DNA from: Acidobacteriaceae bacterium
GTDB lineage: Bacteria; Acidobacteriota; Terriglobia; Terriglobales; Acidobacteriaceae
Assembly (NCBI GenBank): GCA_003134815.1
Contig: PLCO01000035.1
Location: forward strand, 1 to 64,000
Length of the DNA: 64,000 nt
Reading direction: 5' to 3'
In this document: positions 4,530-62,256 of the stretch, in pieces
How positions within the stretch are numbered: position 1 is the first letter of the stretch
Layout: each line of letters starts with the position of its first letter
Position numbers and translations under genes: made by a program
Notes under the pieces: generated by a model
The model's database searches: none
What the model saw: the letters and a program-made list of their open reading frames with translations, nothing else
What the model was told of the DNA's origin: nothing

Positions 4530-5594
4530 CTATTCGCCGGTGAAGGGATTCGAATCGGGCGGCTTGAGCGTGGTTGGATCGTGGGCAGGCGCGGGATTTT
4601 TTTCTTCGGGCTTCTGGCCAGATGATACCGATTCTGAGAGGGCAGATTCTGAGGGGACAGATTCTGAAGGGGCCGATTCGCCTGACGGCTTGAATACGCG
4701 ATAGGGATCGCCGGGAAGCATGTGGTGTTCTTCGAGGGCCAGGCGGACGCGCCGCTGGAATTCGCGCATGGGGCCGTATTGCTGCGTGGCGATGGTTTTG
4801 AAGACAACGGGAAAGATGACCTGCGAGCCTTTGACCGCGTCCACACCCAGAACCTGCGGATCCTGGAGAATGACACTCTTGAATTCGGCGCTGTTGCGGA
4901 CGTCCATGGCGATTTGCTTGAGGAGTTTTGTGACCTCGTCGGGATGGGCGGAGAAGTCGACGCTTACGTTGACGGTGGCGACGGAGAAGTCGGCGCTGAG
5001 GTTGGCGACGGTGGTGATCTGCGAGTTGGGAATGATGTAGAGAGTTCCATCGCCATCGCGCACCATGGTTTTGCGCAGGGTCATGGATTCGACGGTGCCG
5101 GTAAGGCCGGCGAGGCGGACGGTGTCGCCCACGTTGAACTGGTCCTCAAGCAGAAACAACATGCCGTTGAACATGTCCTTGACGATGTTTTGCGCGGCCA
5201 GGCCGATGGCGATGCCTGCGACTCCGGCTGAGGCCAGGAGCGGTGCGAGGTTGAATCCCATTGAGTCAAGCGCCTGCAGCAAGGCGATGACGGCGATGAT
5301 GGCGAGGCCTGTGGCGCGGATGACTCCTGCCATGGTTCGGACCTCGGCACGGCGTACCAGGCCTGCGCCGCTTTTTTCGGAGACGTGGATCATGCGAGAA
5401 GTGGCGAGACGCAGCAAGCGGCTGAGAATAAAGGCGATGAGTGCGATTACCAGCAGGCGCGGCAGCCTTGTGTGGATGAATTCCTGGCTGTCATAAGTCC
5501 ATTCGTCGAGGACGCGGCCGAGGAAGCGGCCCTGCTGGAACCACCCCCAGCGCAACATGAGGACGAATTCTGCCGCGTGACAAAGAAGTGACAT
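4530..5594 (-). CDS. MscS-family mechanosensitive channel
   Basis: A 354-residue inner-membrane protein. After an N-terminal region with hydrophobic segments (LLVIALIAFILSRLL; VIRATGLAIIAVIALLQAL) comes the MscS pore helix LLASAGVAGIAIGLAAQNIV, then the beta domain with DQFNVGDTVRL, TVESMTLRKTMVR and YIIPNSQI, and the C-terminal alpha/beta domain ending near EEHHMLPGDPYRVF. MscS channels open under membrane tension to release solutes. After the conserved domain the protein has a repetitive tail (SAPSESVPSESALSESVSS, about residues 307-325) encoded by a 15-bp tandem array at 4630-4689, then a Pro-rich end. It stands alone, convergent with the repeat region downstream. The start at 5594 is an ATG; the first hydrophobic residues could also allow a later start. 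Confidence 0.9.
   Translation of the reverse strand: MSLLCHAAEFVLMLRWGWFQQGRFLGRVLDEWTYDSQEFIHTRLPRLLVIALIAFILSRLLRLATSRMIHVSEKSGAGLVRRAEVRTMAGVIRATGLAIIAVIALLQALDSMGFNLAPLLASAGVAGIAIGLAAQNIVKDMFNGMLFLLEDQFNVGDTVRLAGLTGTVESMTLRKTMVRDGDGTLYIIPNSQITTVANLSADFSVATVNVSVDFSAHPDEVTKLLKQIAMDVRNSAEFKSVILQDPQVLGVDAVKGSQVIFPVVFKTIATQQYGPMREFQRRVRLALEEHHMLPGDPYRVFKPSGESAPSESVPSESALSESVSSGQKPEEKNPAPAHDPTTLKPPDSNPFTGE
4630..4689. repeat. 15-bp tandem array inside mscS-like gene (four units)
   Basis: On the plus strand the units are GATTCTGAGAGGGCA, GATTCTGAGGGGACA, GATTCTGAAGGGGCC and a degenerate GATTCGCCTGACGGC. Translated on the minus strand they give a pentapeptide repeat (SESxx). The unit resembles the array in coaBC (GCGATTCAGGRSGGG). 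Confidence 0.85.
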
Positions 5595-5677
5595 GCAAAA
5601 GCTCCACTTTCTAGACTAAACTGTGCGCAGGATTGGCCGGCGCTGCGGCCTTGCTCTTCCGAAATGCTCCATTGCGG

Positions 5678-6148
5678 ATGGTGAACCGGATGAGACGAGC
5701 GAGAAGCGAAACAAAAAGCCAGAATTGCCGGGCATGGAGCCGGGGGCGAAGCCCGAGACGGGGGCTCTATGCTGTTGTATGCGTTGCCGTGCTGATGGTT
5801 GTGGCGGGCCTGGGGCTGGTTCGCACGGATGCACAAGAGGCTTTCCCTCTTCCGGCGATCGATCCACCAGGAGCGAAAGCGGGGCCACCAGGGGATAAGG
5901 CCGGGGCTCAGGCCGCACCACAGGTCGCAGTGGCGCCAGCGGGCGCTAAGCCGGCCGGGACAACTGCCGAAAATGCGGACGCATCGGAGATCGCGAAACA
6001 GTGCGCCGACCTGTTGAAGATGGCGACTGCACTTAAGAGCGCGGTCGATAAGACTTCCGCAGGTACGCTTTCGGTGACCGTGGTCCGCAAGGCCGGCGAA
6101 ATTGAGCAATTGGCGCACAAGGTAAGAGTTACGAACGGGAAAAGCTGA
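5678..6148 (+). CDS. Small membrane-anchored/exported protein, paralogue A
   Basis: About 156 residues from the ATG at 5678. A basic N-terminus is followed by one hydrophobic segment (LYAVVCVAVLMVVAGLGLV), then a Pro/Ala/Gly-rich linker that contains two 7-residue units (PPGAKAG, PPGDKAG), and a helical C-terminal part (AKQCADLLKMATALKSAVDK ... VRKAGEIEQLAHKVR). The C-terminal part resembles that of the next gene (DTNKLLKLAKEVNDEIA ... IAEIEKLARSVKEKM), so the two are probably tandem paralogues. I do not know a function; the shape suggests a periplasmic helical domain on an anchor. It is divergent from the mscS-like gene. Confidence 0.65.
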   Translation: MVNRMRRARSETKSQNCRAWSRGRSPRRGLYAVVCVAVLMVVAGLGLVRTDAQEAFPLPAIDPPGAKAGPPGDKAGAQAAPQVAVAPAGAKPAGTTAENADASEIAKQCADLLKMATALKSAVDKTSAGTLSVTVVRKAGEIEQLAHKVRVTNGKS

Positions 6149-6184
6149 GGCAAACGATGCAATTTGTTTTTGGGACGGTGCAAA

Positions 6185-6646
6185 ATGCGTGAAGAAGGAC
6201 GCGCGGTGAAAAGCGGCTGGTTCGGAAGGTGGACACCGTCTCTGAGTTGGGGTTTAGGCTTGGCGATTATGTTTGTCGTTGTCTCCGGACTGACGGTGCG
6301 ATCCCAGTCGGGTCCGCCCAGGGACATCATCAATCGTCCCGCTCCGATGCCGACGGACCCATCATCAGCGGGCGAATATGATCCCGTCATGATGGAGCGT
6401 CGGATGACCGCGCTCAATAACGAGCGCCAGAAGGAGTTGGTCTCTGACACGAACAAGTTGCTCAAGCTTGCCAAAGAGGTGAACGACGAAATTGCGGTAA
6501 GAGACACAGGCGGGTTGACGCCGGAACAGGTGCACAAGATTGCCGAGATTGAGAAGCTCGCGCGCAGCGTGAAGGAAAAGATGGCCGACGGCGCGGGACA
6601 GCCGGGACCGTCGGTATCGGCACCCGCGATGTACCCCAATCGGTAA
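6185..6646 (+). CDS. Small membrane-anchored/exported protein, paralogue B
   Basis: About 153 residues from the ATG at 6185, with GGGACGG 5 bases upstream; an in-frame TTG at 6164 is less likely. It has a basic start, a hydrophobic segment (LGLAIMFVVVSGLTVRSQS), a Pro-rich linker (RPAPMPTDP), then two helices (RQKELVSDTNKLLKLAKEV; QVHKIAEIEKLARSVKEKM) and a short Pro/Gly tail. It follows paralogue A by 36 bases and shares its plan, so they are likely co-transcribed. Function unknown. Confidence 0.7.
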   Translation: MREEGRAVKSGWFGRWTPSLSWGLGLAIMFVVVSGLTVRSQSGPPRDIINRPAPMPTDPSSAGEYDPVMMERRMTALNNERQKELVSDTNKLLKLAKEVNDEIAVRDTGGLTPEQVHKIAEIEKLARSVKEKMADGAGQPGPSVSAPAMYPNR

Positions 6647-6888
6647 TTTGCATCCTGCCGATTAGATTTTAGATTGCTGTGCGTTGCATGGCCGGGGTTG
6701 AAAAGCGCCCGGGGCCGACAAGTTGGAAGTCATCCAGGGCTGGCAAATTGTTACAATCGGTTAAGGTGGTATCCGGAAGTAGGTTCTTCCGGCAAGGCGG
6801 GAGGCCCTGTGCCCGGATTGGCCAGGCGCAAGGTCGTCGCGACGCCGGGAAAGTATGGCTCCGGTTTTGCGTATGGGGGTCGACCGGA

Positions 6889-9096
6889 ATGGAAGTGGCA
6901 ATTTCCAGCGCTCGTTCGTCCGGAACGTTTCCGGCCTGGGATGAGCTGTCAGCGCAAGACAAGGTTGAGATCTACCGGCTGATGTTTCTTTCCCGCGCGG
7001 TGGACGACCGCGAAATTCTTCTCAAACGCCAACAGAAGATCTTCTTTCAAATTTCAGCGGCAGGGCACGAGGCGCTGCAGGTGGGCGCGGCGCTGGCGTT
7101 GCGGCCGGGCTACGATTGGTTTTTTCCCTACTATCGCGATCGCGCGTTGTGCCTGGCCGTGGGCGTTACGCCCTACGACATGATGCTGCAGGCCGTGGGC
7201 GCGGCGACCGATCCGGCAAGCGGCGGGCGGCAGATGCCAACGCACTGGAGCAGCCGACCGCTGCATATCGTCAGCACTTCGTCGTCGACGGCGACGCAAC
7301 TGCTTCATGCCGTGGGTTGCGCCGAGGCTGGGCGCGCATTCAGCAAACATCCGGAGACGGCGGCCAAAGCTCAAGGCGATTATCGCGCCTTTCATGATGT
7401 GGAGTTTCACGGGGACGAAGTGGCGCTGGCCTGCGTGGGCGAAGGCGCGACCTCGCAAGGGGAGTTTTGGGAAGCGATCAATACGGCCGCGAATCAGAAG
7501 TTGCCGGTGATTTTCTGCGTAGAAGATAACGGGTACGCGATCAGCGTTCCCGTGGAAGTGAACACGCCGGGGGGAAACATCTCCCGGCTGGTGGCCAACT
7601 TTCCCAATTTCCATTTTGCCGAGATCGACGGCAATGACCCCTTGGCGAGCCTGCGCGCCTTTCAGGAGGCTGCTGCGCATTGCCGCGCCGGCCGCGGACC
7701 GGCGCTGGTTCACGGCCATTGCGTGCGGCTGTATTCTCACTCGGATTCAGACGACGACAAAATCTACCGGTCGGCCGCAGAACGTGAGGCGGACCTGATG
7801 TGCGACCCCATCGCGCGAATGCGGTCGCGGCTGATCGGCGAGGGAGTTCTGACGGTCTCAGAGATCGACGAACTGGAACGGAGGCTCGGAAACGAAGCCG
7901 CCGAAGCTGCCGAGCGCGCTTTGGAAGCGCCGATGCCGGCTGTGGAGGGAATCACCGCACACGTTTACTCCGAGGATCTCGATCCGACGCGCGCTGCTTT
8001 TGCCACGGAGCAGCCGCAAGTTTCAGCAGAATCGAACGGTGCTGGATCGGTTGGCAGGCTGAAAGGTGCGGGCGCGCATACGATGGCCGACCTGATCAAC
8101 CGCTGCCTGCGCGACGAGATGCGGCACGATCCGCGCATCGTGATTTACGGAGAGGACGTGGCAGACGCGAGCCGCGCTGAAGCTCTATCGGAAGTGAAGG
8201 GCAAGGGCGGAGTTTTCAAGCTCACGGCGGGCCTGCAGACGGAGTTCGGATCGGAGCGGGTTTTTAATTCGCCGCTGGCGGAAGCGAATATTGTTGGCCG
8301 CGCCATTGGCTACGCTCTGCGGGGAATGAAGCCGGTTGTAGAAATTCAATTCTTTGATTACATTTGGCCAGCTATGCATCAGATTCGTAATGAGTTGGCG
8401 TTGATGCGCTGGCGGTCAAATGGGGCATGGGCGGTGCCCGTCGTGATGAGAGTTCCTATCGGCGGATACCTTACCGGAGGCTCAATCTATCACTCGCAAT
8501 CGGGCGAAAGCATCTTTACTCACACTCCGGGACTGCGCGTGATTTTTCCTTCGAACGCGCTCGACGCCAATGGTTTACTGCGGACGGCCATCCGCTGCGA
8601 CGACCCGGTGCTTTTTCTGGAGCACAAGCGGCTCTATCGCGAGACCTATGGCCGCGCGGCGTACCCAGGGCCAGAGTTCGCGATTCCATTCGGGAAGGCG
8701 AAGATCGTCCGTCCGGGCAAGGATCTGACTCTGGTGACGTATGGCGCGCTGGTGCCGCGAGCGATACAGGCCGCGCAGCAAGCGCAGCGAGAGCACGGGA
8801 TCGAGACGGAGATTGTCGATCTGCGAACGCTCAATCCGTACGATTGGGAGGCCATCGCCGAATCGGTGCGCAAGACCAATCGCGTGATTGTGGCGCACGA
8901 AGACATGCTGAGCTGGGGTTACGGCGCTGAGCTCGCGGCGCGGATTGCCGATGAACTTTTCGACGATCTCGACGCTCCCGTGCGACGCATCGGCGCGATG
9001 GACACATTTGTGGCCTACCAGCCGAAGCTGGAAGATGCGATTCTGCCGCAGCCGGAGAACATTCTGAAGGCCATTGTGGAGCTCAAGAGGTACTGA
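6889..9096 (+). CDS. Fused E1 alpha/beta 2-oxoacid dehydrogenase (branched-chain type)
   Basis: The 735-residue product joins both E1 subunits. The alpha part (about 1-380) has YYRDRAL, MPTHWSS, the thiamine-diphosphate motif [18 protein letters not shown]...EDNGYAIS, and YSHSDSDD. The beta part (about 430-735) has [50 protein letters not shown] and the transketolase C-domain ([17 protein letters not shown]). E1 enzymes decarboxylate 2-oxoacids and pass the acyl group to E2 lipoyl domains; the fused form is common in Acidobacteria and Bacteroidetes and is usually annotated as 2-oxoisovalerate dehydrogenase, but substrate cannot be fixed from sequence. No E2 or E3 gene follows. I chose the ATG at 6889 because the preceding 70 codons are unlike any E1. 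Confidence 0.9.
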
Positions 9097-9258
9097 AGCA
9101 TGCCGCGCATTGATGCACTGGCTCCGCGACGACCTTTCCGCCTTCCGATTTCGCGAATGGGAAGGCAGACCGGACCATGATCGAGCTCAGTACGATTCCA
9201 TATGCTTTAGCGACGCAGTATTTGTCGTTCATTGCTATGCCAGAGGTAGGGTCAAGAT

Positions 9259-10047
9259 ATGATTAAGATGAGCTCATGTGGCTGGCTTGTCGTAGCCGTA
9301 TTCTTGTATGCTGCCTCGCCTTTAAGTTCGCAAAGGCCGCCTAAGCCTCTCCCTGATTCACAGGCGGTTGGGTTCGATGTTGTATCAATCAAGCCGAACA
9401 ATTCGGGTGATCAACACGTAGATGTCGATAGCGATCTGGACACTTACACCACAAAGAATATTCGGCTTACGTCACTCGTGGCACAGGCTTATAAAACAAA
9501 AGAGTTTCTAATATATGGCATCCCAGATCGCCTTGGCAATCAGCGATTTGATATTAGCGCGAAGCTTCTTGATCCTAGCCCGGAGAGAATAGAAGCACTA
9601 AGAAATAAGCAATCGCAAATGATCCTCGCTATGCTGCAAGATCGCTTTTCTTTGCGGGCACATCATGGGTTAAAAAAGCTCCGAGCCTATAGTTTGGAGT
9701 CAAATCCGGCGAATCACAAGCTCCTTCATCCGTCGACCGAAAACGATGACTTTGGAACAGACGTGAGGGGAACGGGTAGGACTAGCTTCATTGCTCGACA
9801 TATCTCAATGGACGATCTTGCTCTCATTCTTTCCGATAAACTACAACAACCAGTGATCAATGATACCGGTCTTGCTGGGCGATATGATCTCGATCTAAGC
9901 TGGACGTCAGATCTTGAGGAGCCGACAACTAGCTCACCATCGCTCTTTACGGCACTTCGAGAACAACTCGGTCTAACGCTAAGGACCAAGAAGGAAGACA
10001 TTCAAACGGTCATAGTTGATTACATTTCGACGGCATCTCCTAATTAA
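9259..10047 (+). CDS. TIGR03435-family soil-associated protein
   Basis: A 262-residue exported protein with an N-terminal hydrophobic signal (WLVVAVFLYAASPLSS) and the family hallmark FDVVSIKPNN. Further on are IRLTSLVAQAYK, RFDISAKLL, MLQDRFSLRAHH, ISMDDLALILS and PVINDTGLAGRYDLDLSW, in the order usual for TIGR03435 proteins, which are expanded in Acidobacteria and have no known role. Its codons are visibly more AT-rich than the flanking E1 and ABC genes, which suggests a separate origin. It is alone; the next gene is convergent and ends two bases after its stop. Confidence 0.9.
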   Translation: MIKMSSCGWLVVAVFLYAASPLSSQRPPKPLPDSQAVGFDVVSIKPNNSGDQHVDVDSDLDTYTTKNIRLTSLVAQAYKTKEFLIYGIPDRLGNQRFDISAKLLDPSPERIEALRNKQSQMILAMLQDRFSLRAHHGLKKLRAYSLESNPANHKLLHPSTENDDFGTDVRGTGRTSFIARHISMDDLALILSDKLQQPVINDTGLAGRYDLDLSWTSDLEEPTTSSPSLFTALREQLGLTLRTKKEDIQTVIVDYISTASPN

Positions 10048-10049
10048 AA

Positions 10050-10844
10050 TCATCCGTATAGAACGGGTGTTGCCATGCCGAGCCTCCAGTCGTAGAAAAA
10101 CCAATTCGATGCGCCGGTAAAATGGCCGAAAGTAAATAAAAGTGTGCATAGCAGAGCGGGAAATCTGGGGAGGCTGGACGCCAGCCAAAACGCGCCCAGG
10201 CAGTAAGTCAGGTCCATCAAAACGTAGTGGGACCAACCACGCATCAAAAACGCGCTCCAAAAGGGGTTGCCTTCGCGGACAGTCGCCGGATGCGCCCAAT
10301 ACGAGTGGGGCTGGCCAATAAGTGTGACGAGGGGATCAATGGTCATCACTCCGATCATGACCCAGCGAAGCCTTCTGATCATTTGATGGCCCAATAGACC
10401 GGAAATTGGAGAAACGGCCCAGGCGATCGCCGCGCTTATCGCCAGCACGTACAAGGTCACACCAGTAAATCCCAAATGCCAGCGGACGGCGAGCCAGTGG
10501 GATGCACCGAACACATGACCGAAGATGAAGGAGAAGGCCGCGATGAGCGCAGACATACTGGGAAGAATGGACACAAGCAGAAACGCTGCTGCGAAATATG
10601 CGATGCAGGCGGCAATGTAGGGCAGCCAACCGTGTCCCAGGAAGAAGTCAAATGTGTGGTTGGTGGGATTGTAGATGGACAGTCCGTCGCCGCGCATTGC
10701 GGTTCCAGGGTTGCGCCAGAAGCTTTGCGGTTGGCCGAGAAGCGTAGCGATCGCACTGAAAAGCATTGTGCCAACCATGACCCAGCGAAGGCGCTTTACG
10801 ACTTGATCGTTAGTAAGTTGGACGCGGCGGAAAATTAATCGCAT
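10050..10844 (-). CDS. Internally duplicated polytopic membrane protein
   Basis: About 264 residues from the ATG (complement ending at 10844, with GAGG upstream). The two halves align: KRLRWVMVGTM...LLGQPQSFWRNP...FIFGHVFGASHWLAVRWHLG in the first (about 14-132) and RRLRWVMIGVM...LIGQPHSYWAHP...FTFGHFTGASNWFFYDWRLG in the second (about 152-264). Each half has about three hydrophobic segments and conserved GQPxSxWxxP and FGHxxGAS(N/H)W motifs. I do not recognise the family. The conserved His and Trp residues in membrane-proximal places are notable. It is convergent with the TIGR03435 gene. Confidence 0.75.
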   Translation of the reverse strand: MRLIFRRVQLTNDQVVKRLRWVMVGTMLFSAIATLLGQPQSFWRNPGTAMRGDGLSIYNPTNHTFDFFLGHGWLPYIAACIAYFAAAFLLVSILPSMSALIAAFSFIFGHVFGASHWLAVRWHLGFTGVTLYVLAISAAIAWAVSPISGLLGHQMIRRLRWVMIGVMTIDPLVTLIGQPHSYWAHPATVREGNPFWSAFLMRGWSHYVLMDLTYCLGAFWLASSLPRFPALLCTLLFTFGHFTGASNWFFYDWRLGMATPVLYG

Positions 10845-11139
10845 GATTCGACCTCGAGCGGAGTATTGGTGGTTGCGGGCAGGAGGAAGGTACATGCGCC
10901 GCTGCTCACATCGTCATAATACCTGCGCAAGCCAAAGTGAGAAGTCGCCCTTTTGGCTTGTGCGAATCAAAACGGCTTTCCGTAACTGACGAGATACGAG
11001 GCACATGGCTGGAGGCCTGCGCGCGAAGCGCGGATTGCGTCTGGCGCGGATACAATACTGGGATGGACTTCAGTACTCATTTCCAGCAGGGGTTTTCCAA
11101 CAGGAGTCCGCGCTGGACGCGCAGGGCAGGCCGAGCCGC

Positions 11140-13059: not shown

Positions 13060-13061
13060 GC

Positions 13062-14416: not shown

Positions 14417-14443
14417 AAGCTAGGAACTCTGAAGAGGAGAACT

Positions 14444-15567: not shown

Positions 15568-16941
15568 ATGAGAGTGACGGTCGGCGTCTCGGGTGGAATC
15601 GCCGCGTACAAAGCGGCTGAACTGGTGCGCGCACTTCAGCGCCAGGCCATCGAGGTGCATGTGGTGATGACCGCGTCAGCGCAGAGGTTTGTGCAGCCGC
15701 TCACCTTTGCTGCGCTCACCGGCCATAGAGTGATCACCAGCCTTTGGGACGAAAGCGATTCAGGGGGGGGCGATTCAGGACGGGGCGATTCAGGAGGGAT
15801 CGACCTGGGAGCTTCCGCACCGGAGCAAAACGGCATCGAGCATATCGCCGAGGCACAGTGGGCCGATGCGCTGGTTGTGGCGCCAGCCACGGCTAACATT
15901 CTGGCGAAGTTTGCGCACGGCATTGCCGACGATTTTCTTTCAACGCTGTATCTTGCCACCGCCGCGCCGGTGGTGGTTGCGCCCGCAATGAACGTGAACA
16001 TGTGGAATCATCCGGCCACTCGGGCGAACATTGAAACACTACGGCAGCGCGGCGTGGCAATCATCGAGCCGGGAACGGGCGAGCTTGCCTGTGGCATGGT
16101 GGGCGCAGGCCGCATGGCGGAGCCGGAGACGATTGCCGCAGCAGTGCAGACCGCACTTGGACGCCGCCACGATCTGGCCGGTGAGGTGGTACTGGTGACT
16201 GCGGGCGGCACGCGCGAGGCGCTCGACCCGGTGCGATTTATCGGCAACCGCTCCAGCGGCAAGATGGGTTACGCATTGGCCGAGGCTGCGCGCAGCCGTG
16301 GCGCTAAGACGATTCTGATCAGCGGCCCGACGGCATTAAATCCGCCCGCGCACTGCGAATTCGTAAAGGTAATTACCGCTGACGAAATGCGGAACGCTGT
16401 GCTCGAGCGAATGAACGAAGCTACGCTGGTGATCAAAGCTGCCGCCGTGGCCGATTATCGACCGATCGCAGTGTCGGAGCAGAAACTCAAGCGCACCGGA
16501 CCGCTTACCCTGGAGCTCGCGCCCACTGAAGACATTCTGGCTGAAGTGGTGCGTCGGCGCAGGCCCGGGCAACTCATTGTCGGCTTCGCCGCGGAAACCG
16601 AAAATCGCATGGAGAACGGCCGCGCCAAGCTTCTGGCCAAGGGCGCGGACGCGATTGTGGTGAACAATGTGACGGGTGAGGGCGTGGGCATTGACGCGGA
16701 TACCAATGCGGCCACATTTCTTACTCGAACGACATCCCAGGAACTGCCGCAGATGGCCAAACGCCAACTGGCTGACCGCATTCTCGACGAAATTCTCACG
16801 CTACGCCGGCCGCAATCCGTTGTGGTGGAGCTCGACGATGAGCGGGATGCGGGAGCGTGGAAGAAACAGGCCATTCAGGATCGCGTGCTGGATGAGAGCG
16901 TTCCTATCGGCGCAGGTCGCCGGCAACTGATCGTGGAGTAA
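15568..16941 (+). CDS. coaBC: Bifunctional CoaBC (phosphopantothenoylcysteine synthase/decarboxylase)
   Basis: A 457-residue enzyme of coenzyme A synthesis. The CoaC part (FMN flavoprotein, about 1-200) has [31 protein letters not shown] with the catalytic His, [12 protein letters not shown], and [12 protein letters not shown] with the catalytic Cys. The CoaB part has [42 protein letters not shown] and [11 protein letters not shown]. Between the WDESDS segment and the active-site His there is an extra [20 protein letters not shown], encoded by a 15-bp tandem array (15755-15799), where the family normally has a short loop. The udg gene follows after 5 bases. Confidence 0.95.
15755..15799. repeat. 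15-bp tandem array inside coaBC (three units)
   Basis: Units GCGATTCAGGGGGGG, GCGATTCAGGACGGG and GCGATTCAGGAGGGA encode Gly/Asp/Ser pentapeptides in a surface loop of the CoaC domain. The unit resembles the one in the mscS-like gene. Confidence 0.85.
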
Positions 16942-22482: not shown

Positions 22483-22573
22483 GCGGCGACGGGGAAACTG
22501 GAGTGGCCTTGGCAAGCTATAGCACGATGACCGGCACTGCCGGAAGGAAATAGACGGCTGGGGGGACTGAGAG

Positions 22574-22612
22574 CGGAGAACAGAGAACGGAGAACAGAGA
22601 ACAGAGTAAAGA
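22574..22612. repeat. Purine-rich 14-bp tandem repeat
   Basis: CGGAGAACAGAGAA occurs twice in tandem (22574-22601), followed by a partial unit. It lies upstream of the phosphatase gene start on its 5' side and is one of several GAACAGAG/GGAATAGGGAGTAG-type tracts in gaps of this window. Confidence 0.6.
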
Positions 22613-31979: not shown

Positions 31980-32672
31980 ATGGCGGTGATTGTTGTTGGC
32001 GGGGGCGGGCGCGGCGTGGGGAAGACAGCGCTGGTGTGCGGCCTGATGCGCGCGCTGCCGGAGATCGCATGGACTGCCATCAAGGTGACAACGCACGAGC
32101 ACGGAAAGCCGACTCCGATCTGGGAAGAAACTGAGCCGGGTGAGGGGAGCGACACAGGACGCTACCTAGCGGCCGGCGCGCGGCGCGCGTTGCTGGTGAG
32201 AGCATCCGAGGATGCTCTGGGACCGGACGACGATACGCTTGGACCAATAGTGCAGCAAGTTCTGCGGGAATATATGCAAGCGGACGAAATTGTCAGGTCC
32301 GAAATTCGTAGGTCCGGGGCGGACGAGGCTGGTGAAAGCAGGGCTGGCGAAAGCAGGGCTGGCGAAAGCAATGATGGCGCGATGCGTGCCGGCGCGATCC
32401 AGTCCGGTGTGATCCCTTACGGCGTGATTTTCGAATCGAACAGCGTGCTGCGCCACTTGCGGCCCGACGTTTGCCTTTGTGCGGCGACCAGTCCGTGGAT
32501 GAACGAGAAGTCTTCGTACGATCTTGTAGCGCAGCGCATGGATGCGATGGTTGAGCTGGCGGGGCATGATCACATCATCGAGGCGGAGAAGATTACGTTT
32601 CGTTTGGCGTCGTTGGAGCGAGTCTCGCCTACGATGCAGGAGTGGCTGCGGGAGCGGCTGGGTGCGCCGTAG
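31980..32672 (+). CDS. P-loop NTPase, MobB-like, with pentapeptide-repeat insertion
   Basis: A 230-residue protein. The N-terminus has VIVVGGGGRGVGKTALVCGL (Walker A), then AWTAIKVTTHEHGK and DTGRYLAAGARRALLV, which resemble MobB-type P-loop proteins that help load GTP/cofactor in molybdenum-cofactor synthesis. From about residue 103 to 152 the protein is made of three successive 15-bp arrays (EIVRS/EIRRS, then AGESR x3, then xxGA(I/V)-type), ending IPYGVIFESNSVLRHLRPDV, after which a conserved-looking C-terminus (PWMNEKSSYDLVAQRMD) resumes. No moco genes are nearby; function uncertain. Confidence 0.65.
   Translation: MAVIVVGGGGRGVGKTALVCGLMRALPEIAWTAIKVTTHEHGKPTPIWEETEPGEGSDTGRYLAAGARRALLVRASEDALGPDDDTLGPIVQQVLREYMQADEIVRSEIRRSGADEAGESRAGESRAGESNDGAMRAGAIQSGVIPYGVIFESNSVLRHLRPDVCLCAATSPWMNEKSSYDLVAQRMDAMVELAGHDHIIEAEKITFRLASLERVSPTMQEWLRERLGAP
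32286..32432. repeat. Three adjacent 15-bp tandem arrays inside the P-loop gene
   Basis: First GAAATTGTCAGGTCC and GAAATTCGTAGGTCC (32286-32315). Second GCTGGTGAAAGCAGG, GCTGGCGAAAGCAGG, GCTGGCGAAAGCAAT (32328-32372). Third a looser series GATGGCGCGATGCGT, GCCGGCGCGATCCAG, TCCGGTGTGATCCCT, TACGGCGTGATTTTC (32373-32432). All keep frame. Confidence 0.85.
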
Positions 32673-34486: not shown

Positions 34487-34949
34487 CGATGTAAGGTCAC
34501 GCAATGGGGCGTAGCCAGTAGGGCGTAAATTGCGGCAACTAGCCCATTCCGCAAAATGCCGCTTTCAAGTGGCAGACGCCCGAATTGTGGCAGTTACTTT
34601 CCGGGTGCGCTTCCATATATCGACGTAAAGAGGCGGATTTGGGCGGGTTTGCGGGCCGCGGAGGGGTGGTTCTGTAGTCGAAATCGGGATGGAAATCGAC
34701 GAAAAAGTCGCCGTGCTGCTAGAAATGAGGGGGTATTCCGTGCTACGGTGCAAGCCTTGTGGCCAATTTTTGCCGGCACCGGTAGCAGACGCATTGGCCG
34801 CGAACTGATTGACGAGATTACGCCGCTGGAACGGATTGCCGGTAAGTGAGTCAAACATGGGAACGAGCCGGGCAAGAGCAGGCAAGTAGTAAAACAGGCA
34901 AGTAGTAAATAGAGAGTGAATGGGGTCAGAGAGGGAATCGGGTTAAGGA
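34487..34949. other. Gap between dprA and topA
   Basis: About 460 bases. A frame of 97 codons at 34556 has no recognisable content and I do not call it. Near 34860-34930 there is a tandem-like purine-rich tract (AGGCAAGTAGTAAAACAGGC, AAGTAGTAAATAGAGAGTG). Confidence 0.45.
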
Positions 34950-53384: not shown

Positions 53385-53487
53385 TGAACCTCCTTCACCT
53401 TCACGCGGATTATACCGTTTTTGCAATATATCAGTGCTGGCCTACGGCTCCCGGGAGTCGTACAATTCAAAGAAATCGGAGCCGAAA

Positions 53488-53919
53488 ATGAAATCCCCGC
53501 TAAGACATCTGTTCTTGTGCATTATGTTTTGTGCCGTGGTGACCGCTGTATTTGCGAAGACGAAGGATCGACCGGATAGTGATTATCGAGACGGAGTCTT
53601 GGTCAGCTTCCGGACCGTTGCGGCTGGAAGCAACTGCTCATCCTCTGGTTCGGTGAAGGGGGCGGTCGATGACAGCGGAAATGTTGAGGGAACTGATAAT
53701 AGCAACGGTTCCTGCTATAACATCAGCGTTCGCCTCTACACCATCAAGGTTGGAGACACCACATTTGTCATCAAACATGCACCTGAGAGTTGGAACCGGA
53801 ACAGCGTTTTGGAACAGCAACTGCCCGGACTGAAATTCAAAGTGAGAACTCAGAAGGATAAGCTCTATATAAAAGTCGGGGAGCGAGAATCCCCTTTCTT
53901 CATTGTCGATGCGCAATAG
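53488..53919 (+). CDS. Exported protein of unknown function
   Basis: A 143-residue protein from the ATG at 53488. Signal peptide LFLCIMFCAVVTAVFAKT; mature part SDYRDGVLVSFRTVAAGSNC, a Gly/Ser/Asn-rich middle, YNISVRLYTIKVGDTTFVIK, and LPGLKFKVRTQKDKLYIKV. G+C content is low compared with neighbours. Looks like a small beta-rich domain. I do not recognise the family. Confidence 0.65.
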   Translation: MKSPLRHLFLCIMFCAVVTAVFAKTKDRPDSDYRDGVLVSFRTVAAGSNCSSSGSVKGAVDDSGNVEGTDNSNGSCYNISVRLYTIKVGDTTFVIKHAPESWNRNSVLEQQLPGLKFKVRTQKDKLYIKVGERESPFFIVDAQ

Positions 53920-54014
53920 CCCGTACTGGACTTGCTGGATTCAGATGAAGATTTTTCTTGAGTCCAAAAAAGTAGTGTCTATGATCGGCGCTAATCCGAA
54001 ATCGTGGCGCGACT

Positions 54015-54302
54015 TCAAATGGGCACGGCCGTATTTATAGGGGGTGACTGAAAGCCGAAGCGAACAAGCTCCTCAGGGTCTACTACGGGGTTTTCTTTGG
54101 CTGAATAACGTACCACCAGCGTCCATCGCTCGCCGCTGGGCTGCACCTGGCGATCCGCTAGTCCAAGTTGTGTGGCTTCGACACACGCGTCAAGGCGCGA
54201 ACCGTACCATTTCCACAGCAAGTTATCTGCGTATCGCACCCATAGCGCCTCGCCATTGCTCTCGCTGGGTTCAATTGTGACTTTGACAGGAACTGCCCCC
54301 AT
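54015..54302 (-). CDS. Small hypothetical protein
   Basis: A 95-residue frame: VPVKVTIEPSESNGEALWVR, WKWYGSRLDACVEATQLGLA, SGERWTLVVRYSAKENPVVD. Codon use is plausible and it lies in an otherwise empty gap with a GGGG stretch before the ATG. No family recognised; might be spurious. Confidence 0.45.
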   Translation of the reverse strand: MGAVPVKVTIEPSESNGEALWVRYADNLLWKWYGSRLDACVEATQLGLADRQVQPSGERWTLVVRYSAKENPVVDPEELVRFGFQSPPINTAVPI

Positions 54303-54382
54303 GTGCCCCCCAAACTGGAATCCTGTCTACGATACTAGCTGATTTCGCTGGCCTGAAAATCGGTGCTTATCTTCGAGCTTGT

Positions 54383-55981: not shown

Positions 55982-56193
55982 TCTTGTCGATTTCCTGTGA
56001 GTGTTTTCCGGTGCTGCACCCAAGCCGCAGTGGGGCACTAGCTTCACCGGCCAGTTGAGGTTGATTTTGAAGTGGGTTTGGGGCATATAACGTTGCCCCG
56101 AAACGGGTGCTCACTTCCGCACTTTTAGTGTCTCACAGCGGTGCGGAAACTCTGTAAGACCGGGGACTCGGAAAGGAGGGGCCCGATTGGGGC

Positions 56194-56859
56194 TCACCGA
56201 GTTTTCAGCGCTGACTCTTGGCCCTGATCAAGCCTCGCGCCACCCAAAAGTTTGGCGGCGAGAAAGGCTGACCACAAAGTCCGCGTGGAGGCGGCTAGTT
56301 TTTCCAGCAGTCCTGCGGGTCCACCAAGATGGTTGGCAGCTCCGAAGGCGGCGAGAAGCGCCATCATCAGGATTGCAGTGATCAGTGAATAGGCGGCCCA
56401 GCCCTTCCATCGGACATCACGCCGGAAACGCCAGGCAAATGTGAACAGGACGAGCAGAGCAGAGTCGAATGCGATCAGATCGCAGACGAGATGCAGGGGG
56501 TTGTAAATAAATATCGCGTCGCCAATCACGCCGATTCCGGAGAAAAGCTGGAATAGCGGGATCAGCAGCGCGCCCCGCTCATGGTTCAATTCCCGGCGCA
56601 GTCCCGCAGCAAACGTGCAAAGCAGCAGTCCGAATACGGAAAAGTTTGCTCGCTGAGCGACGCTCATTGGTGTGAATTCAAGGGCGCTGATGGTGTCGCG
56701 CGCGAAACTGTAGTTGGGAGCAAGTGCGCCGAGAATTGTGAAGACGGAAAAGAAAACGACTCCACTGAACCCCGCGGCTAGAAGGATTTTCTGCACCCCT
56801 GATCGCTGTATATCGTACCCTGCGGCCGTGGACAAGATCGTTCGATTTGGCTCGTTCAT
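56194..56859 (-). CDS. DUF998 family membrane protein
   Basis: A 221-residue protein with about six hydrophobic segments, e.g. ILLAAGFSGVVFFSVFTILG, FSVFGLLLCTFAAGL, LVCDLIAFDSALLVLFTFAW. NYSFARDTISALEF after the first helix is the conserved DUF998 piece (YxxxxDxISxLE-like). No known function. Its end is near a second minus-strand gene. Confidence 0.82.
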   Translation of the reverse strand: MNEPNRTILSTAAGYDIQRSGVQKILLAAGFSGVVFFSVFTILGALAPNYSFARDTISALEFTPMSVAQRANFSVFGLLLCTFAAGLRRELNHERGALLIPLFQLFSGIGVIGDAIFIYNPLHLVCDLIAFDSALLVLFTFAWRFRRDVRWKGWAAYSLITAILMMALLAAFGAANHLGGPAGLLEKLAASTRTLWSAFLAAKLLGGARLDQGQESALKTR

Positions 56860-56898
56860 GAAGGCGCTCTGCCCGATCGTAACAAGAATCCTCGCCGC

Positions 56899-57987
56899 CT
56901 ACTGCGTTGGCGGAGCGGCGTACTTGCCGGATTTGGCGTAGAGCCAGTCGCCGCCATCGCCTGGATTGGCAGGATCTTTCACGACGTAATAGAGCATGGT
57001 GACGGGCGCGAAGCACTGGCGGTAGATAAGGCCGACATCGGCACCGTGGTTAGGCGTGGGAATGTTTACGCCGAACATAAAGTAGGCGGGCGGATTGTCG
57101 ATGCGGAGCATGCCGTTATGGATCTCATTCGTGATCTCGTGAAGTCCGCCGCCGGCATAGGTTGAAGTGCCATCGTTGCCGACGCCAAATTCGTAATGTG
57201 GCGCAGTCGGGTTGTTCTGGTCGTAGGTTGTGTCAATAGCGGCCTGATAATGGCGGTTGATGGGGGCCATGGTTTTGGCGGCAACGACGCGGACAAGGAT
57301 AGAGCATGAGTTCGCCGAGCCGGGGCCGTAGATGGCGTTGACCCAGTTTGCGGCGTCGTCTCCGGTCTCGGCGGCTATGAGCTCAGCTGGGGTGGGCGGC
57401 GGCTTGATCCCTGCGCAGGCAGCCGGCAGAAGGAAAAGCGAAGCGGGCGGTGTTGCGAATGAGACTTTGGTGATGTTGACCAAGGTCATCGAAGCGCCCC
57501 CCGCTGCGCTCAGTTCCATGCGGATCACGAGACTGTCCTTCATGTCGATCCAGGCCTTCACATTTGCGCCCTGCGTGGTGCCCGTGAACACCTGTGTCGC
57601 GATGCCGTTGATGGTCTCGGCACCTGCAGGCTTGATGTCGCCTTTGGCAACGCTCGAATTCAAGTCAGCGGTCGAGGCAAAGGGGTCGCCCCAGTCTCCG
57701 GAAAAAGTGCCCGCGCCGCACGAAATCGGATGGGCGTCGGGGTCCCAGGAGTCCGTGGTGCCGGCCTTAAGGTCATAGAGGCTGAAGGATCGGCTGGCTG
57801 GAGTTCCGCTCTGCGCCGGTTGTTTTACCTCCATCAGAACTTTGGAGCCGCTGCGGTAAATGGTGGATGTGGAGCCCGTCGAACTGACCGACTGGGTGAT
57901 GATGTAGGCCGTGGGCGGCGTTTGCGCATTCAGGAGCGGGGCGCAAGCAAGGGCGCAAAGACAGGCGATGATGCGTGGAGTTGACAT
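56899..57987 (-). CDS. Exported protein of unknown function
   Basis: A 362-residue protein with a signal peptide (IIACLCALACAPLLNA). The first half (TAYIITQSVSSTGSTSTIYR, KVLMEVKQ, WIDMKDSLVIRMELS) resembles DUF4412/LolA-like beta-sheet proteins; the second half (NWVNAIYGPGSANSC, HYEFGVGNDGTSTYAGGGLH, YYVVKDPANPGDGGDWLY) is not known to me. Four or more cysteines could form disulfides. Same strand as the DUF998 gene upstream; possibly co-transcribed. Confidence 0.7.
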   Translation of the reverse strand: MSTPRIIACLCALACAPLLNAQTPPTAYIITQSVSSTGSTSTIYRSGSKVLMEVKQPAQSGTPASRSFSLYDLKAGTTDSWDPDAHPISCGAGTFSGDWGDPFASTADLNSSVAKGDIKPAGAETINGIATQVFTGTTQGANVKAWIDMKDSLVIRMELSAAGGASMTLVNITKVSFATPPASLFLLPAACAGIKPPPTPAELIAAETGDDAANWVNAIYGPGSANSCSILVRVVAAKTMAPINRHYQAAIDTTYDQNNPTAPHYEFGVGNDGTSTYAGGGLHEITNEIHNGMLRIDNPPAYFMFGVNIPTPNHGADVGLIYRQCFAPVTMLYYVVKDPANPGDGGDWLYAKSGKYAAPPTQ

Positions 57988-58153
57988 GGGAAAACTTCCT
58001 CAGAGAGCGATGAATCCGGAAAACGAAAACGGCGATCGTGATCGAGCGAAAAACGAATCTGCCCGAGGGTTAGCCGATGATATTTGCCGAATTACATCTC
58101 GTCAAGTTGGATGATTGAGCCGGATTCTGCCGCGCGCCGGCCTGTGCGTCGAG

Positions 58154-58858
58154 TCAGAAGATGTCGCAGAGCTTTGCGAACGCGTCAAGCTCGATGAGGT
58201 GCTGGCCTGCGGGAGCGGCGTCCACTGCAGCGTGCTCCAGAATCCATGTGTCCTTGTGAAAGAGAAAGACCGCGTGCAGGCCGGCCGCGAGCGCGGGATT
58301 GATGTCGCTTTTGGGACTATTACCGATCATCCAAGCGCTCCGCGCTTCAATGTTTTGGTGAAGAAGCACTTCACGGTAAGCAACCGGATCTTTTTCAGCG
58401 ACAATCTCAACGGAGGCAAAGAATTGTGCAAGCCCGGAGCGCGCGAGCTTATCAGCCTGCTCGGCGTGGTTGCCTTTGGTCATTAGGATGAGGTGGTGGC
58501 GACGGGCGAGGTCTTTGAGCGTTTCCGCCACGCCGGGCAGCAACTCGATCTCCTGCTCAGCGATCGACCGCGCGAATCCGCGGATGCGCTCCCGTTTTTC
58601 ATCCGTCACCGGCAAAGGACTGAGCCGCTCAAAGCAATCAACCAGCGACTGCGTAAAGCTGGTCAGGCCGTAGCCATGCGCCAGGATTGTTTCGCGCTCT
58701 ACTGTGTTGAGGGTTTGCCGCACTTCGGCGGGTGAGTGCTCGTGATGATCAAGGAAGCTGATGAACGCGGCGATCGCGCGCTCAAAATAGATGTTGTTTT
58801 CCCACAGCGTATCGTCGGCGTCAATGAGCAGCGTCTGGCCGGCGGGGAAGCGGGGCAT
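58154..58858 (-). CDS. HAD-superfamily hydrolase
   Basis: A 234-residue protein from the ATG (complement ending 58858). Motif 1 LLIDADDTLWENN with nucleophile Asp and acid Asp two later, motif 2 ILMTKGNHA, motif 3 SVEIVAEKDP and motif 4 AWMIGNSPKSDINPA. A cap domain lies between motifs 1 and 2. A phosphatase of the phosphoglycolate/haloacid type; substrate unknown. Divergent from the HigA-like gene. Confidence 0.9.
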   Translation of the reverse strand: MPRFPAGQTLLIDADDTLWENNIYFERAIAAFISFLDHHEHSPAEVRQTLNTVERETILAHGYGLTSFTQSLVDCFERLSPLPVTDEKRERIRGFARSIAEQEIELLPGVAETLKDLARRHHLILMTKGNHAEQADKLARSGLAQFFASVEIVAEKDPVAYREVLLHQNIEARSAWMIGNSPKSDINPALAAGLHAVFLFHKDTWILEHAAVDAAPAGQHLIELDAFAKLCDIF

Positions 58859-58940
58859 GAAGCGAGAATACAAGCTTGCGCAGCCAACCTCCAGTCCGCT
58901 GCGCGCGAAAGCGTACACTAGAGCCGACGGAGGATGCAGT

Positions 58941-59249
58941 ATGCCGATGAAGAACCCGCCGCATCCCGGAGATTTTATTCGCACGGAGATCGTTGAAGCC
59001 TCCGGGCTGACCGTTACGGCCGCCGCGCGTGCACTGCATGTCTCGCGGCCCGCATTGTCCAGCCTGCTCAACAGCAACGCGGATCTTTCCGGCGAGATGG
59101 CTTTGCGCATTGAGAAGGCCTTTGGGGTGAAGATGGACACGCTGATGCGCATGCAGAGCGCCTATGACATCGCGCAGACGCGGAAAACCGCGAGCCGAAT
59201 CGATATTCCGCGCGTTGGGTTGACGAGCGCTGCCGATCTGCGCGCCTGA
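58941..59249 (+). CDS. HigA-family antitoxin-like protein without a toxin
   Basis: A 102-residue protein with GGAGG six bases before the ATG at 58941. MKNPPHPGDFIRTEIVEASG, LTVTAAARALHVSRPALSSL, NADLSGEMALRIEKAFG and MDTLMRMQSAYDIAQTRKTA are the standard HigA (VapI) segments. The toxin gene higB normally precedes it, but only 82 bases separate it from the divergent HAD gene and none follows. It may still be a DNA-binding repressor. Confidence 0.88.
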   Translation: MPMKNPPHPGDFIRTEIVEASGLTVTAAARALHVSRPALSSLLNSNADLSGEMALRIEKAFGVKMDTLMRMQSAYDIAQTRKTASRIDIPRVGLTSAADLRA

Positions 59250-59269
59250 ACGAACAACCGACGTCCTCT

Positions 59270-60721
59270 TTACACACCTAATTCGTTGCGAATGGCGGCT
59301 GCGATGGCTTCGGCGTGGCGGCGCATCGCCTCTTCGCTCTCCGCTTCGATCATCACTCGTGCCAGCGGCTCAGTTCCGGAATAACGAATGACCACGCGGC
59401 CCGTGCCGTCGAGCTCAGTCTCTGCCGCGCGGATCGCGTCGACGACCGCCGGAATTCCGTCGAGCGGCTTTTTCTCGCGGACCTGCACGTTCACGATCAC
59501 CTGGGGAAAGACTTTGAGATCCGCTGTTAAATCGCCGATCGATTTGCCGGTGCGCGCCACGAGATCGAGCACAACGAGCGCGGTCAGGAGACCGTCGCCG
59601 GTGGTGGCGAGATGCGGAAAGAGAATGTGTCCTGACTGTTCGCCGCCCAACGCGGCGTTCGTCTTTTGCATCTCCTCCAGCACGTAGCGGTCGCCTACCG
59701 GCGCGCGCAACATGCGAATTCCGCTGCGCTTGAGCGCGGCTTCCAGGCCCATGTTCGACATGGTTGTGGCCACCACCAAGTCGCCCGTCAACAGGCCGCG
59801 GGCTTTCAGGTCGCGCGCGGCCATCAGCAGAATGGCGTCACCGTTGATCACGTTGCCTTCGGCGCCGGCCATCATGCAGCGGTCGGCGTCGCCATCGAAG
59901 GTCAGACCGAGGTCCGCTCCGCGAGACTTTACCTCGCGGGCCACGAACTCGGGATGAAGCGCGCCGCAATTCGCGTTGATGTTGCGTCCGTCGGGCGTTG
60001 TGTTCAGCAATGTGATTTCAGTGCGGGCGTCGGCATTCAGCCGGCGCAAGAGCTCTTCCCCTATCTCAGGAGTTAAATGTCCGAATCTCAGCTTGGATAC
60101 TTTGGAACCACTTAGCCGACGCAAAAGCTCGGGAGCGATCGCCGCGGCGGCGCCGTTGGCGCAATCGGCCACAATCTTCAGGCCGGAGAGCGAAAGCCCC
60201 GGCACGCAGTCGATGAGGAACTGAATGTAATCGCTCTGAAGAGCAGTGTTGTCCTCGACGGGCGCGAAGCAGTGCGGATCGGCGATCTGCACCTGCGCGG
60301 AGTGAAAGAGAATTTCCTCTTCCATGGCCAGCTCCGCCGCGTCGGGGAACTTGAATCCATCTGCGCCGAAGAGCTTGATGCCGTTGTCAGCCCAAGGATT
60401 GTGCGACGCGGAGATGACCACGCCTGCGTCGAAACCGTGAGTCTTGGCCAGGAACGCGACGGCGGGGGTCGTCACGATGCCCGCGCTCTCGACTGTCGCA
60501 CCTGCCTGGCGCAGGGCCTCGGCCAGAGTGGCAGCGATCCACGGACCCGATTCGCGTGTGTCGCGCCCGATGAGAACTTTGGGCCGCGTCGACTTCTTAC
60601 GCAGCGAATGCGCGAGCGCGAGGCCGACGCTATAAATTGTCGTTGGATCCAGCGGGGCCTCTCCCGCGACGGCGCGAATGCCGTCTGTGCCGAATAGTTT
60701 GCGTGTGCCGTTGGAGGTCAT
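59270..60721 (-). CDS. glmM: Phosphoglucosamine mutase
   Basis: A 483-residue enzyme that turns glucosamine-6-P into glucosamine-1-P for cell-wall and LPS precursors. LFGTDGIRAVAGEAPLDP, VISASHNPWADNGIKLFG with the phospho-Ser, LTFDGDADRCMMA (metal), GGEQSGHILF and RYSGTEPLARVM are all normal. It is about 38 residues longer than E. coli GlmM. Much of this is a 25-residue insertion (SGSKVSKLRFGHLTPEIGEE then LLRRL) flanked by direct repeats (see 60039-60130). The ATG overlaps the xseA stop by 4 bases (ATGA). Confidence 0.95.
   Translation of the reverse strand: MTSNGTRKLFGTDGIRAVAGEAPLDPTTIYSVGLALAHSLRKKSTRPKVLIGRDTRESGPWIAATLAEALRQAGATVESAGIVTTPAVAFLAKTHGFDAGVVISASHNPWADNGIKLFGADGFKFPDAAELAMEEEILFHSAQVQIADPHCFAPVEDNTALQSDYIQFLIDCVPGLSLSGLKIVADCANGAAAAIAPELLRRLSGSKVSKLRFGHLTPEIGEELLRRLNADARTEITLLNTTPDGRNINANCGALHPEFVAREVKSRGADLGLTFDGDADRCMMAGAEGNVINGDAILLMAARDLKARGLLTGDLVVATTMSNMGLEAALKRSGIRMLRAPVGDRYVLEEMQKTNAALGGEQSGHILFPHLATTGDGLLTALVVLDLVARTGKSIGDLTADLKVFPQVIVNVQVREKKPLDGIPAVVDAIRAAETELDGTGRVVIRYSGTEPLARVMIEAESEEAMRRHAEAIAAAIRNELGV
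60039..60130. repeat. 75-bp in-frame insertion in glmM flanked by 17-bp near direct repeats
   Basis: AGCCGGCGCAAGAGCTC (60039-60055) and AGCCGACGCAAAAGCTC (60114-60130) differ at two positions and are exactly 75 bases apart. Both encode ELLRRL on the minus strand. The DNA between is more AT-rich than the gene. Confidence 0.8.
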
Positions 60722-62256
60722 TTTGGCGATCTCTTGCCTCGTTTGCCGGTTTTGCGCGTATCGGAAATGGAGTGCGTGCCGGGTGAAACGGCCTCTACGC
60801 GGCTCGCGAATGACCCGTCGGCCAGGCGCGTGGAAAGTTGATCGCCAGAGCCGACTTGCGCTGTGGAACGAATGAGCGTGCCGTCGCTCGAGAGAACCAG
60901 CGCATAGCCGCGGTCGAGCACAGCCAGTGGCGAGAGCGAACGGAGCCGTGCGTCGAGTGCGCCAAGCCGAGAGGACGAGGACTCGATCAGCCGTTCGAGG
61001 GAGCGATAAAGGCGGGCGCGGAAGTCGGCGAGGATTTGGCGCGCATGAGCGAGTCTCTGTCGGGGGTCGTGATGAAGAACGCCGGCGGCAAGCTCGGCGA
61101 TGCGATTCTGGCCCCGGCGAAGTTGATTTGTAACCGCGGCGTCCATTCGCTGCGTTGCGTCGTCGAGACGCTGCTCCAGCCGATGCAGCAAGGTGACCAC
61201 GCGCGACTCGGCGCGGCTGATGGGCGAATGCGCGAGGCGCTGGCGGGCCTGCAGAATCTGAAAGCCGATTGAGCGTTCCAGCCGGTGCGATTGAGTAGCA
61301 AGGTGATCGGCGATTTTATGCTGGGCTTCGGTGATGAGTTCGGCCGCGGCGGAAGGCGTGGGCGCACGCAGGTCGGCGGCGAAGTCGGCAATGGTGAAGT
61401 CGGTTTCATGTCCGACGGCGGAGACAACGGGCAACCGCGATGCCGCGATGGCTCGCGCAACGCGCTCGCTGTTGAAGGCGGCAAGGTCTTCGAGTGAGCC
61501 GCCTCCGCGCGCCAGAACAATCAAGTCCACCAGATTTATCGCGTTCAACTCGACGAGCGCCGCTTCGATCTCGGCCGGCGCGGATTCGCCTTGCACGGAG
61601 ACTGGGGAGAGTAGCACATTCAGGCCGGAATGACGGCGGCTGACAATATTCAGAAAGTCGCGAATGACCGCGCCCGTGGGCGAAGTGACGATTCCAACCG
61701 TGCGCGGAAACATGGGCAGCGGTTTCTTGCGTTCGGCGTCGAAGAGGCCCTCGACCCTGAGCTGCTGCTTCAATTGCTCGAAGGCAAGCTGCAGCGAGCC
61801 GGCGCCGACCGGCTCCATTGTCTCCGCGACGAGCTGCATCTGGCCGCGCTGTTCGTAGACGCTCACGCGGCCCCGCACGAGGACGTGCAGGCCGTCTTCA
61901 GGCCGAAAGCGGAGGAGCACTGCCTGACGCCGGAAGAGAACGACGGGCAATTGCGCCTCGGCGTCCTTCAACGTGAAGTAAACGTGGCCCGAGGGCGCGG
62001 GGCGGTAGTTCGAAATTTCGCCCTCGACCCAAACGTCGCCGTACTCCTGCTCCACCAGTTCCCGCACCTGCGATACAAGATCGCGCACAGGCCAGATGCG
62101 GCGCGACGGGCGCGGCTCCTCAAATCGGAACTCCAATTGTGGGGTTTCGTCGCGGTCTGACGCGAGGTGCTCTGGTGCGAAGTGGTCGGGCACGAAGTGC
62201 TTTGGCGCGAATGGATCGAGTGGAGTCACTGCTGATGAGTTTAACGGTTCTGACAT
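60718..62256 (-). CDS. xseA: Exodeoxyribonuclease VII large subunit
   Basis: A 512-residue nuclease subunit. The OB-fold part has VRDLVSQVRELVEQEYGDVW, VEGEISNYRPAPSGHVYFTL and LKDAEAQLPVVLFRR; the core has VGIVTSPTGAVIRDFLNIVS, LIVLARGGGSLEDLAAFNSE, PVVSAVGHETDFTIADFAAD and RAPTPSAAAELIT; the coiled-coil C-terminus follows and ends with LDRGYALVLS. A variable N-terminal leader (about residues 12-35) is a pentapeptide repeat encoded by 15-bp units (62162-62221). xseB is not adjacent. The ATG overlaps the Hpt stop. Confidence 0.95.
   Translation of the reverse strand: MSEPLNSSAVTPLDPFAPKHFVPDHFAPEHLASDRDETPQLEFRFEEPRPSRRIWPVRDLVSQVRELVEQEYGDVWVEGEISNYRPAPSGHVYFTLKDAEAQLPVVLFRRQAVLLRFRPEDGLHVLVRGRVSVYEQRGQMQLVAETMEPVGAGSLQLAFEQLKQQLRVEGLFDAERKKPLPMFPRTVGIVTSPTGAVIRDFLNIVSRRHSGLNVLLSPVSVQGESAPAEIEAALVELNAINLVDLIVLARGGGSLEDLAAFNSERVARAIAASRLPVVSAVGHETDFTIADFAADLRAPTPSAAAELITEAQHKIADHLATQSHRLERSIGFQILQARQRLAHSPISRAESRVVTLLHRLEQRLDDATQRMDAAVTNQLRRGQNRIAELAAGVLHHDPRQRLAHARQILADFRARLYRSLERLIESSSSRLGALDARLRSLSPLAVLDRGYALVLSSDGTLIRSTAQVGSGDQLSTRLADGSFASRVEAVSPGTHSISDTRKTGKRGKRSPK
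62162..62221. repeat. 15-bp tandem array inside xseA (four units)
   Basis: Units on the plus strand: GCGAGGTGCTCTGGT, GCGAAGTGGTCGGGC, ACGAAGTGCTTTGGC, GCGAATGGATCGAGT. In protein they read FAPKH, FVPDH, FAPEH, LASDR. They lie upstream of the conserved OB domain. Confidence 0.75.

Follow-up and report, generated by a model that had tools for sequence, protein, structure and literature searches.

Rickettsia palindromic elements are inserted in frame in conserved genes, a feature shared by the arrays described here, which differ, however, in being local tandem copies without a common unit or a palindromic excess. Pentapeptide repeat proteins, which we take to be the family PF00805, have a five-residue period in common with the present arrays, but the latter have another consensus and only some 3–4 units, and a Pfam search of the four array proteins (E up to 0.001) gave no match to the pentapeptide repeat profile. 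Coding minisatellites, or VNTRs, offer a further likeness, consisting as they do of head-to-tail units of more than 10 bp, in frame and enriched in multiples of three. This enrichment in coding tandem repeats is described in a study of human genes (PMC1273636) and in a survey of 7006 prokaryotic genomes (PMC6344855), the latter also reporting that, among the tandem repeats which prokaryotes carry between genes, heptamers are the most abundant. Models of slippage and recombination at minisatellites are standard (PMC3899988).

By comparison with coding minisatellites, the arrays considered here are led by one period class (15 bp, within a hump of 14–18 bp) in a free-living bacterium; they occur in many unrelated genes, have unrelated units and are raised in a small part of a genus. 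Heptamers of the prokaryotic intergenic kind are also present, yet they are separable from the 15–17 bp arrays by a lag-7 test. No title or abstract reporting a period-15 excess in Acidobacteria was found in the open-licence literature. We consider it probable that the arrays are ordinary minisatellites, generated by a mutational process whose activity is unusually high in this branch of the Acidobacteriaceae. The observation is real and the process mostly an ordinary one, with a size mode near 15 bp and a raised rate in the lineage.

Four genes with period-15 arrays

The window is a stretch of 64,000 nucleotides at the start of contig C21 of an Acidobacteriaceae genome of 4.18 Mb in 66 contigs. 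The nearest named relatives of this genome are MAGs from peat and soil, some of them labelled Terracidiphilus, and the nearest genome found is about 80% identical to it in DNA. The genes concerned, and the arrays detected in them by TRF, are as follows.

4530-5594, minus strand: mscS-like gene (Pfam MS_channel)
4630..4679, minus strand: 15-bp array, 3.3 copies, 85% match, in the C-terminal tail of the mscS-like gene
7903-7946, in the window: 21-bp coding array
15568-16941, plus strand: coaBC (Pfam Flavoprotein and DFP)
15755..15798, plus strand: 15-bp array, 2.9 copies, 89% match, in the flavoprotein-domain loop of coaBC
31980-32672, plus strand: gene of the third protein, with a GRGVGKTA stretch and without a Pfam family
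32285-32316, 32327-32370 and 32390-32428, plus strand: trio of period-15 arrays in a loop of the third protein
60718-62478, minus strand: xseA (Pfam Exonuc_VII_L), the start probably lying nearer 62229
62156..62211, minus strand: 15-bp array, 3.7 copies, 73% match, in the linker before the xseA OB fold

The initial annotation had reported period-15 arrays within four genes, each at a domain edge or loop. TRF recovers all of them in place and in frame, and they occupy a tail, loops and a linker; all four sites also vary in length among orthologs. The in-frame reading of the window arrays includes FAPKHFVPDHFAPEHLASD.

The mscS-like protein, whose tail array has the peptide units SESAP/SESVP/SESAL, is 15 residues (three units) longer than sister L215, and this array is absent from all 29 same-genus relatives aligned. 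The coaBC array is a 45-bp insertion (15 residues, three units) relative to the sister genome G053. It is absent from the 99 other readable CoaBC rows, from the genus and beyond, of an alignment of 100 found from 109 loci, in which L141 was masked and some genomes appear twice. Different five-residue repeats are present at the same CoaBC loop in L151 and L163, and the solved CoaBC structure 6tgv is shorter at the loop of the window array.

A Pfam search gave no family for the third protein, so that its label of 'P-loop' protein is our presumption from the GRGVGKTA stretch. Against sister L245 the protein has 35 additional residues (7 x 5). The middle array of its trio is the strongest (32327-32370; 2.9 copies, 96% match), the flanking two being weaker by TRF. 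Whilst the array at 32390-32428 is partly common to L245 and L246 (AGAI/AGGI repeats), those at 32285-32316 and 32327-32370 are absent from the 19 relatives aligned, L263 being represented by only a fragment. In xseA the founder unit is present singly in the sister, against four units in the window; the difference is a 45-bp insertion of 15 residues (three units), and the linker array is absent from the 29 same-genus relatives aligned.

The four arrays are whole-unit gains relative to the same-genus orthologs aligned, the window proteins differing from the sister by 15, 15, 15 and 35 residues in the manner of coding minisatellites. The gains come in whole units, and their copies have diverged.

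Periods inside and between genes

Array periods were compiled for the window together with 60 further stretches (1.177 Mb in total, 28% of the genome), with genes called by a dicodon score (a purpose-made, non-curated caller; CDS fraction 0.82) and arrays taken from TRF at a score of at least 50, overlapping rows being reduced to the best one. This yielded 92 coding and 136 intergenic arrays, as well as 27 gene-edge arrays which were kept apart from both tallies. Coding arrays with periods of 12, 15, 18, 21 and 24 bp number 12, 33, 15, 11 and 6, the excess of 15 having p=0.002 over 12 and p=0.013 over 18; at 2.5 copies or more, the counts for 12, 15 and 18 bp are 9, 24 and 5. The window was picked because of its four arrays, and counts are for this reason also given without it. 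The predicted lead of period 15 over 12 and 18 in coding sequence is clear in the whole sample and weaker once the window is excluded (29 arrays at 15 bp, 12 at 12 bp and 15 at 18 bp). It is marked in contig-start stretches (21, 7 and 5 at 15, 12 and 18 bp), narrower in interior stretches when the window is counted among them (12, 5 and 10) and lost when it is left out, 15 then not being ahead (8, 5 and 10). Period 15 thus clearly outnumbers 18 in some samples and not in others. A stricter lag count (T=13) gives 11 coding sites at lag 15 and 8 each at lags 12 and 18, and perfect duplicates in genes of the window genome number 4, 5 and 1 at 15, 12 and 18 bp. The notion of a period of exactly 15 throughout the genome must be relaxed, since many coding arrays have periods of 12, 18 or 21 bp, the 21-bp array of the window among them.

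Calibration with implanted arrays of 2.5 copies gave detection of 0.61 at 12 bp, 0.86 at 15 bp and 0.95 at 18 bp. TRF detection thus climbs with period, without a peak at 15. Detection therefore does not account for the coding excess of 15 over 18, though it does in part for that over 12. When the complete sample was shuffled once by local triplets, 2 period-15 arrays reached a score of at least 50, against 53 observed (33 in coding DNA, 19 between genes and 1 at a gene edge), which rules out chance as their source. An assembly artefact, or chance, in this MAG is scarcely credible as an explanation of the whole: the arrays are short and the genome lies in 66 contigs, yet, besides the outcome of the shuffle, the sister carries arrays of its own, an enlarged CoaBC loop is also found in P0001, a separate record, and array density is much the same in the interior of contigs as at their starts.

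The 15-bp excess had been expected to be confined to coding DNA, and this expectation is contradicted. Intergenic DNA of the window genome is the denser in arrays (633/Mb vs 96/Mb for coding DNA), and its periods of 12, 15, 18, 21 and 24 bp (3/19/8/9/3) have the same 15-centred spectrum as those in genes (chi-square p=0.66), accompanied by periods of 14, 16 and 17 bp. Multiples of three make up 49/136 of the intergenic arrays and 89/92 of the coding ones. Occurrence between genes at least as often as within them, named beforehand as one of the outcomes that would tell against the proposed system, is therefore established, whilst out-of-frame periods inside genes are rare (3/92), as a reading-frame filter predicts.

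Heptamer-like arrays account for 29/136 intergenic arrays by the lag-7 test; the others, including those of 15–17 bp, fail it. ORF-like stretches hold 6/19 of the 'intergenic' period-15 arrays. With these stretches removed, and with the 29 heptamer-like arrays also removed for this count only, non-coding periods of 14, 15, 16, 17 and 18 bp number 6, 13, 8, 10 and 7. Intergenic periods thus form a broad hump at 14–18 bp. Intergenic arrays detected by TRF in the window, none with an assigned strand, include the following.

4469..4519: 19-bp array, 2.7 copies, adjoining the mscS-like gene
22569..22606: 7/14-bp heptamer array, GAGAACA
34879..34943: neighbouring 16-bp and 17-bp two-copy arrays

The arrays at 34879..34943 correspond to the coding arrays, but free of any reading frame.

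Several further arrays were seen in passing. Heptamer arrays (AGAGAAC, TTGTCAGT, CTAACCA), a known common class, lie between genes across Terriglobales, for example at L018:18984-19055. At L018:3121-3228, in a stretch called intergenic, three distinct period-15 arrays directly follow one another, an arrangement like that in the gene of the third protein. A 15-bp array (VERKELERKELERKELGRK) at L039:9982-10036 falls exactly at a predicted start codon, and 30 bp of it are missing from the sister. Almost 4.7 perfect 18-bp copies, which appear recent, are found within a predicted gene at L061:14115-14198.

Copies, units and loop lengths

Mismatch between copies is even over codon positions 1, 2 and 3 (0.172/0.152/0.182, p=0.36; 60 coding arrays with periods of 12–21 bp, indel-bearing arrays left out), so that the peptide repeat is without visible constraint, contrary to what a selected pentapeptide system would lead one to expect. 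Nor do the units resemble one another. Among 49/53 period-15 arrays, the 4 with a consensus not 15 long being left out, 3/1176 unit pairs agree at no fewer than 12 of the 15 bases in any rotation on either strand, where 0.9 would be expected from base-shuffled units; the mscS and coaBC units match at 10/15 bases, which is within chance. The units show no palindromic excess, their self reverse-complement match averaging 6.78/15 against 7.32 (sd 0.19) when shuffled. A shared or palindromic dispersed element was rejected on the dissimilar units and the lack of such an excess.

In the process which we favour, a local stretch, mostly of about 14–18 bp, would be duplicated in tandem, alike in coding and non-coding DNA. 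Copy number would then shift by slippage, itself an inferred step, whilst the copies drift apart. In genes nearly only multiples of three would survive, so that a hump of 14–18 bp would be seen as a 15-bp peak flanked by 12, 18 and 21. Loop tolerance may act as a second filter, the four window arrays lying in length-variable loops, linkers or tails. A mutational hump combined with a reading-frame filter would predict the coding and intergenic spectra, the even mismatch over codon positions and the unrelated units.

Loop lengths in homologs bear on a different reading, that flexible pentapeptide linkers are under selection and five-codon repeats are kept as useful peptides. Loops were compared in the best 120 of 3163 CoaBC and the best 120 of 750 third-protein homologs, of which 118 and 116, respectively, fitted the patterns. 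Among those 116 of the best 120 of 750, the third-protein loop ends at residue 97 in 35 sequences, 102 in 11, 107 in 6 and 117 in 5, a series of five-residue length classes, though other registers occur too in the same set (104 in 15, 114 in 3, 119 in 6, 123 in 9, and 128). CoaBC loops have gained five-residue units from different founders in the window genome/P0001, P0065, L151 and L163; the loop of P0001 (91% identical; another record, of 12 member sequences) extends 10 residues beyond the usual 14. All four window arrays likewise consist of five-residue units, and lie in loops, a linker or a tail. The recurring expansions at the CoaBC and third-protein loops could also be read as selection. 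A first duplication fixes the unit, however, and slippage would keep it, so the ladder alone does not show selection. Furthermore, intergenic DNA has the same period mode and is itself array-dense, the copies have no codon-position bias, and both peptides and units are dissimilar between arrays. We regard selected linkers as quite unlikely to be the explanation, and selection for pentapeptides is not needed under the minisatellite interpretation.

Distribution in the lineage and candidate causes

The coding 15-bp excess is seen in the window genome and its sister. Period-15 coding arrays occur at 34.3/Mb in the window genome, against 5.6/Mb at 78 relative loci and 6.5/Mb in controls (E. coli K-12, pSymB and the C. 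metallidurans megaplasmid; 550 kb), and at about 7.4/Mb in nine other genomes of the genus (4 arrays in ~0.54 Mb). Of the lineage-specific mutational or selected system originally proposed for adding pentapeptides, the lineage-specific process is borne out by this coding rate, 5–6 times that of relatives and controls, and the selected system is not.

For all periods, sister G053 has 108/Mb in coding and 460/Mb in intergenic DNA (301 kb sample). The nine other genus genomes, sampled at 47–92 kb each, have 2–5 coding arrays per genome and, when pooled, 25 coding arrays in ~0.54 Mb and 13 intergenic arrays in ~0.105 Mb. The window genome and G053 exceed these nine about fivefold in intergenic density and about twofold in coding density. 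One of the nine, G018, is high in intergenic DNA (5 in ~8 kb, or 603/Mb, a small sample). Intergenic density is also high at 46 near-relative loci (317/Mb) and 32 far loci (489/Mb), compared with 28 and 138/Mb in two control megaplasmids, so to some extent the intergenic component extends across the family; 7-, 8- and 14-bp units lead at the far loci, most arrays there being 7- and 14-bp heptamers. A single gene neighbourhood supplied all the relative loci, and the single-genome samples are small.

Length changes between the window genome and the sister are less distinct. Indels counted by DNA have no clear 15-bp mode, the count being noisy at ~80% identity. Protein indels in 1679 ortholog pairs (951 deduplicated events) number 99, 77 and 35 at 4, 5 and 6 residues and 21, 21 and 7 at 9, 10 and 11 residues, which may be a mild sign of five- and ten-residue steps, though 4 residues stands higher. 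Tandem-like protein indels of 3, 4, 5 and 6 residues number 13, 17, 24 and 3, figures affected by rounding of the 40% cut-off.

Weakened repeat-stabilising repair, through mismatch repair or RecJ/ExoVII, might raise the rate. Single-strand exonucleases stabilise tandem repeats in E. coli according to PMC3942315 (citing Feschenko 2003), and xseA itself carries an array. RecJ of the window genome (L034:3648-5750, minus strand; ~700 codons) has a 24-residue loop insertion and a second, long Ala/Ser/Pro-rich insertion beginning with a five-residue repeat. Its presumed catalytic motifs are retained, and the RecJ of the array-dense sister is without the 24-residue insertion and has only part of the second, so loss of RecJ is an unlikely cause. 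Genes for MutS, MutL, RecJ, XseA and XseB were found in both genomes, a finding of gene presence and not proof of activity; loss of mismatch repair was set aside on the presence of MutS and MutL. Overall, we judge weakened repair unlikely.

Ku-type end joining, in which fill-in of staggered breaks would give duplications of set length, is very improbable. Of the perfect two-copy intergenic duplicates of the window genome, 24/36 extend 0–2 bp past the unit, a raw count by which long pre-existing direct repeats are unneeded and which fits with or without slippage. Ku was, however, not found in the window genome, the sister or, in all, 27/40 genus genomes, low-density ones included. Ku is thus absent with or without dense arrays, and was rejected as the cause, an argument which bears on the Ku-dependent route only.

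It is conceivable, albeit doubtful, that tandem duplication in the clade depends on a distinct machinery, or on a lesion, whose physical step is ~15 bp, for example through paired nicks or re-priming at a spacing of roughly one and a half turns of the helix. Five-codon steps would then be added continually to loops genome-wide, and this would constitute a new bacterial mutational signature.

Under the reading of ordinary minisatellites in an unusually active branch, a common period across genes does not imply a common function, and caution is needed in this respect. If the hump is mutational, loops would grow in a predictable five-residue step which arises from DNA metabolism and the reading frame, and not from protein design. 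Array density differs between the pair of genomes and the nine others, so the genus provides a natural contrast for finding the determinant of rate and size. This contrast may offer a route to the gene or condition which governs how often short tandem duplications arise in bacteria, and how long they are.
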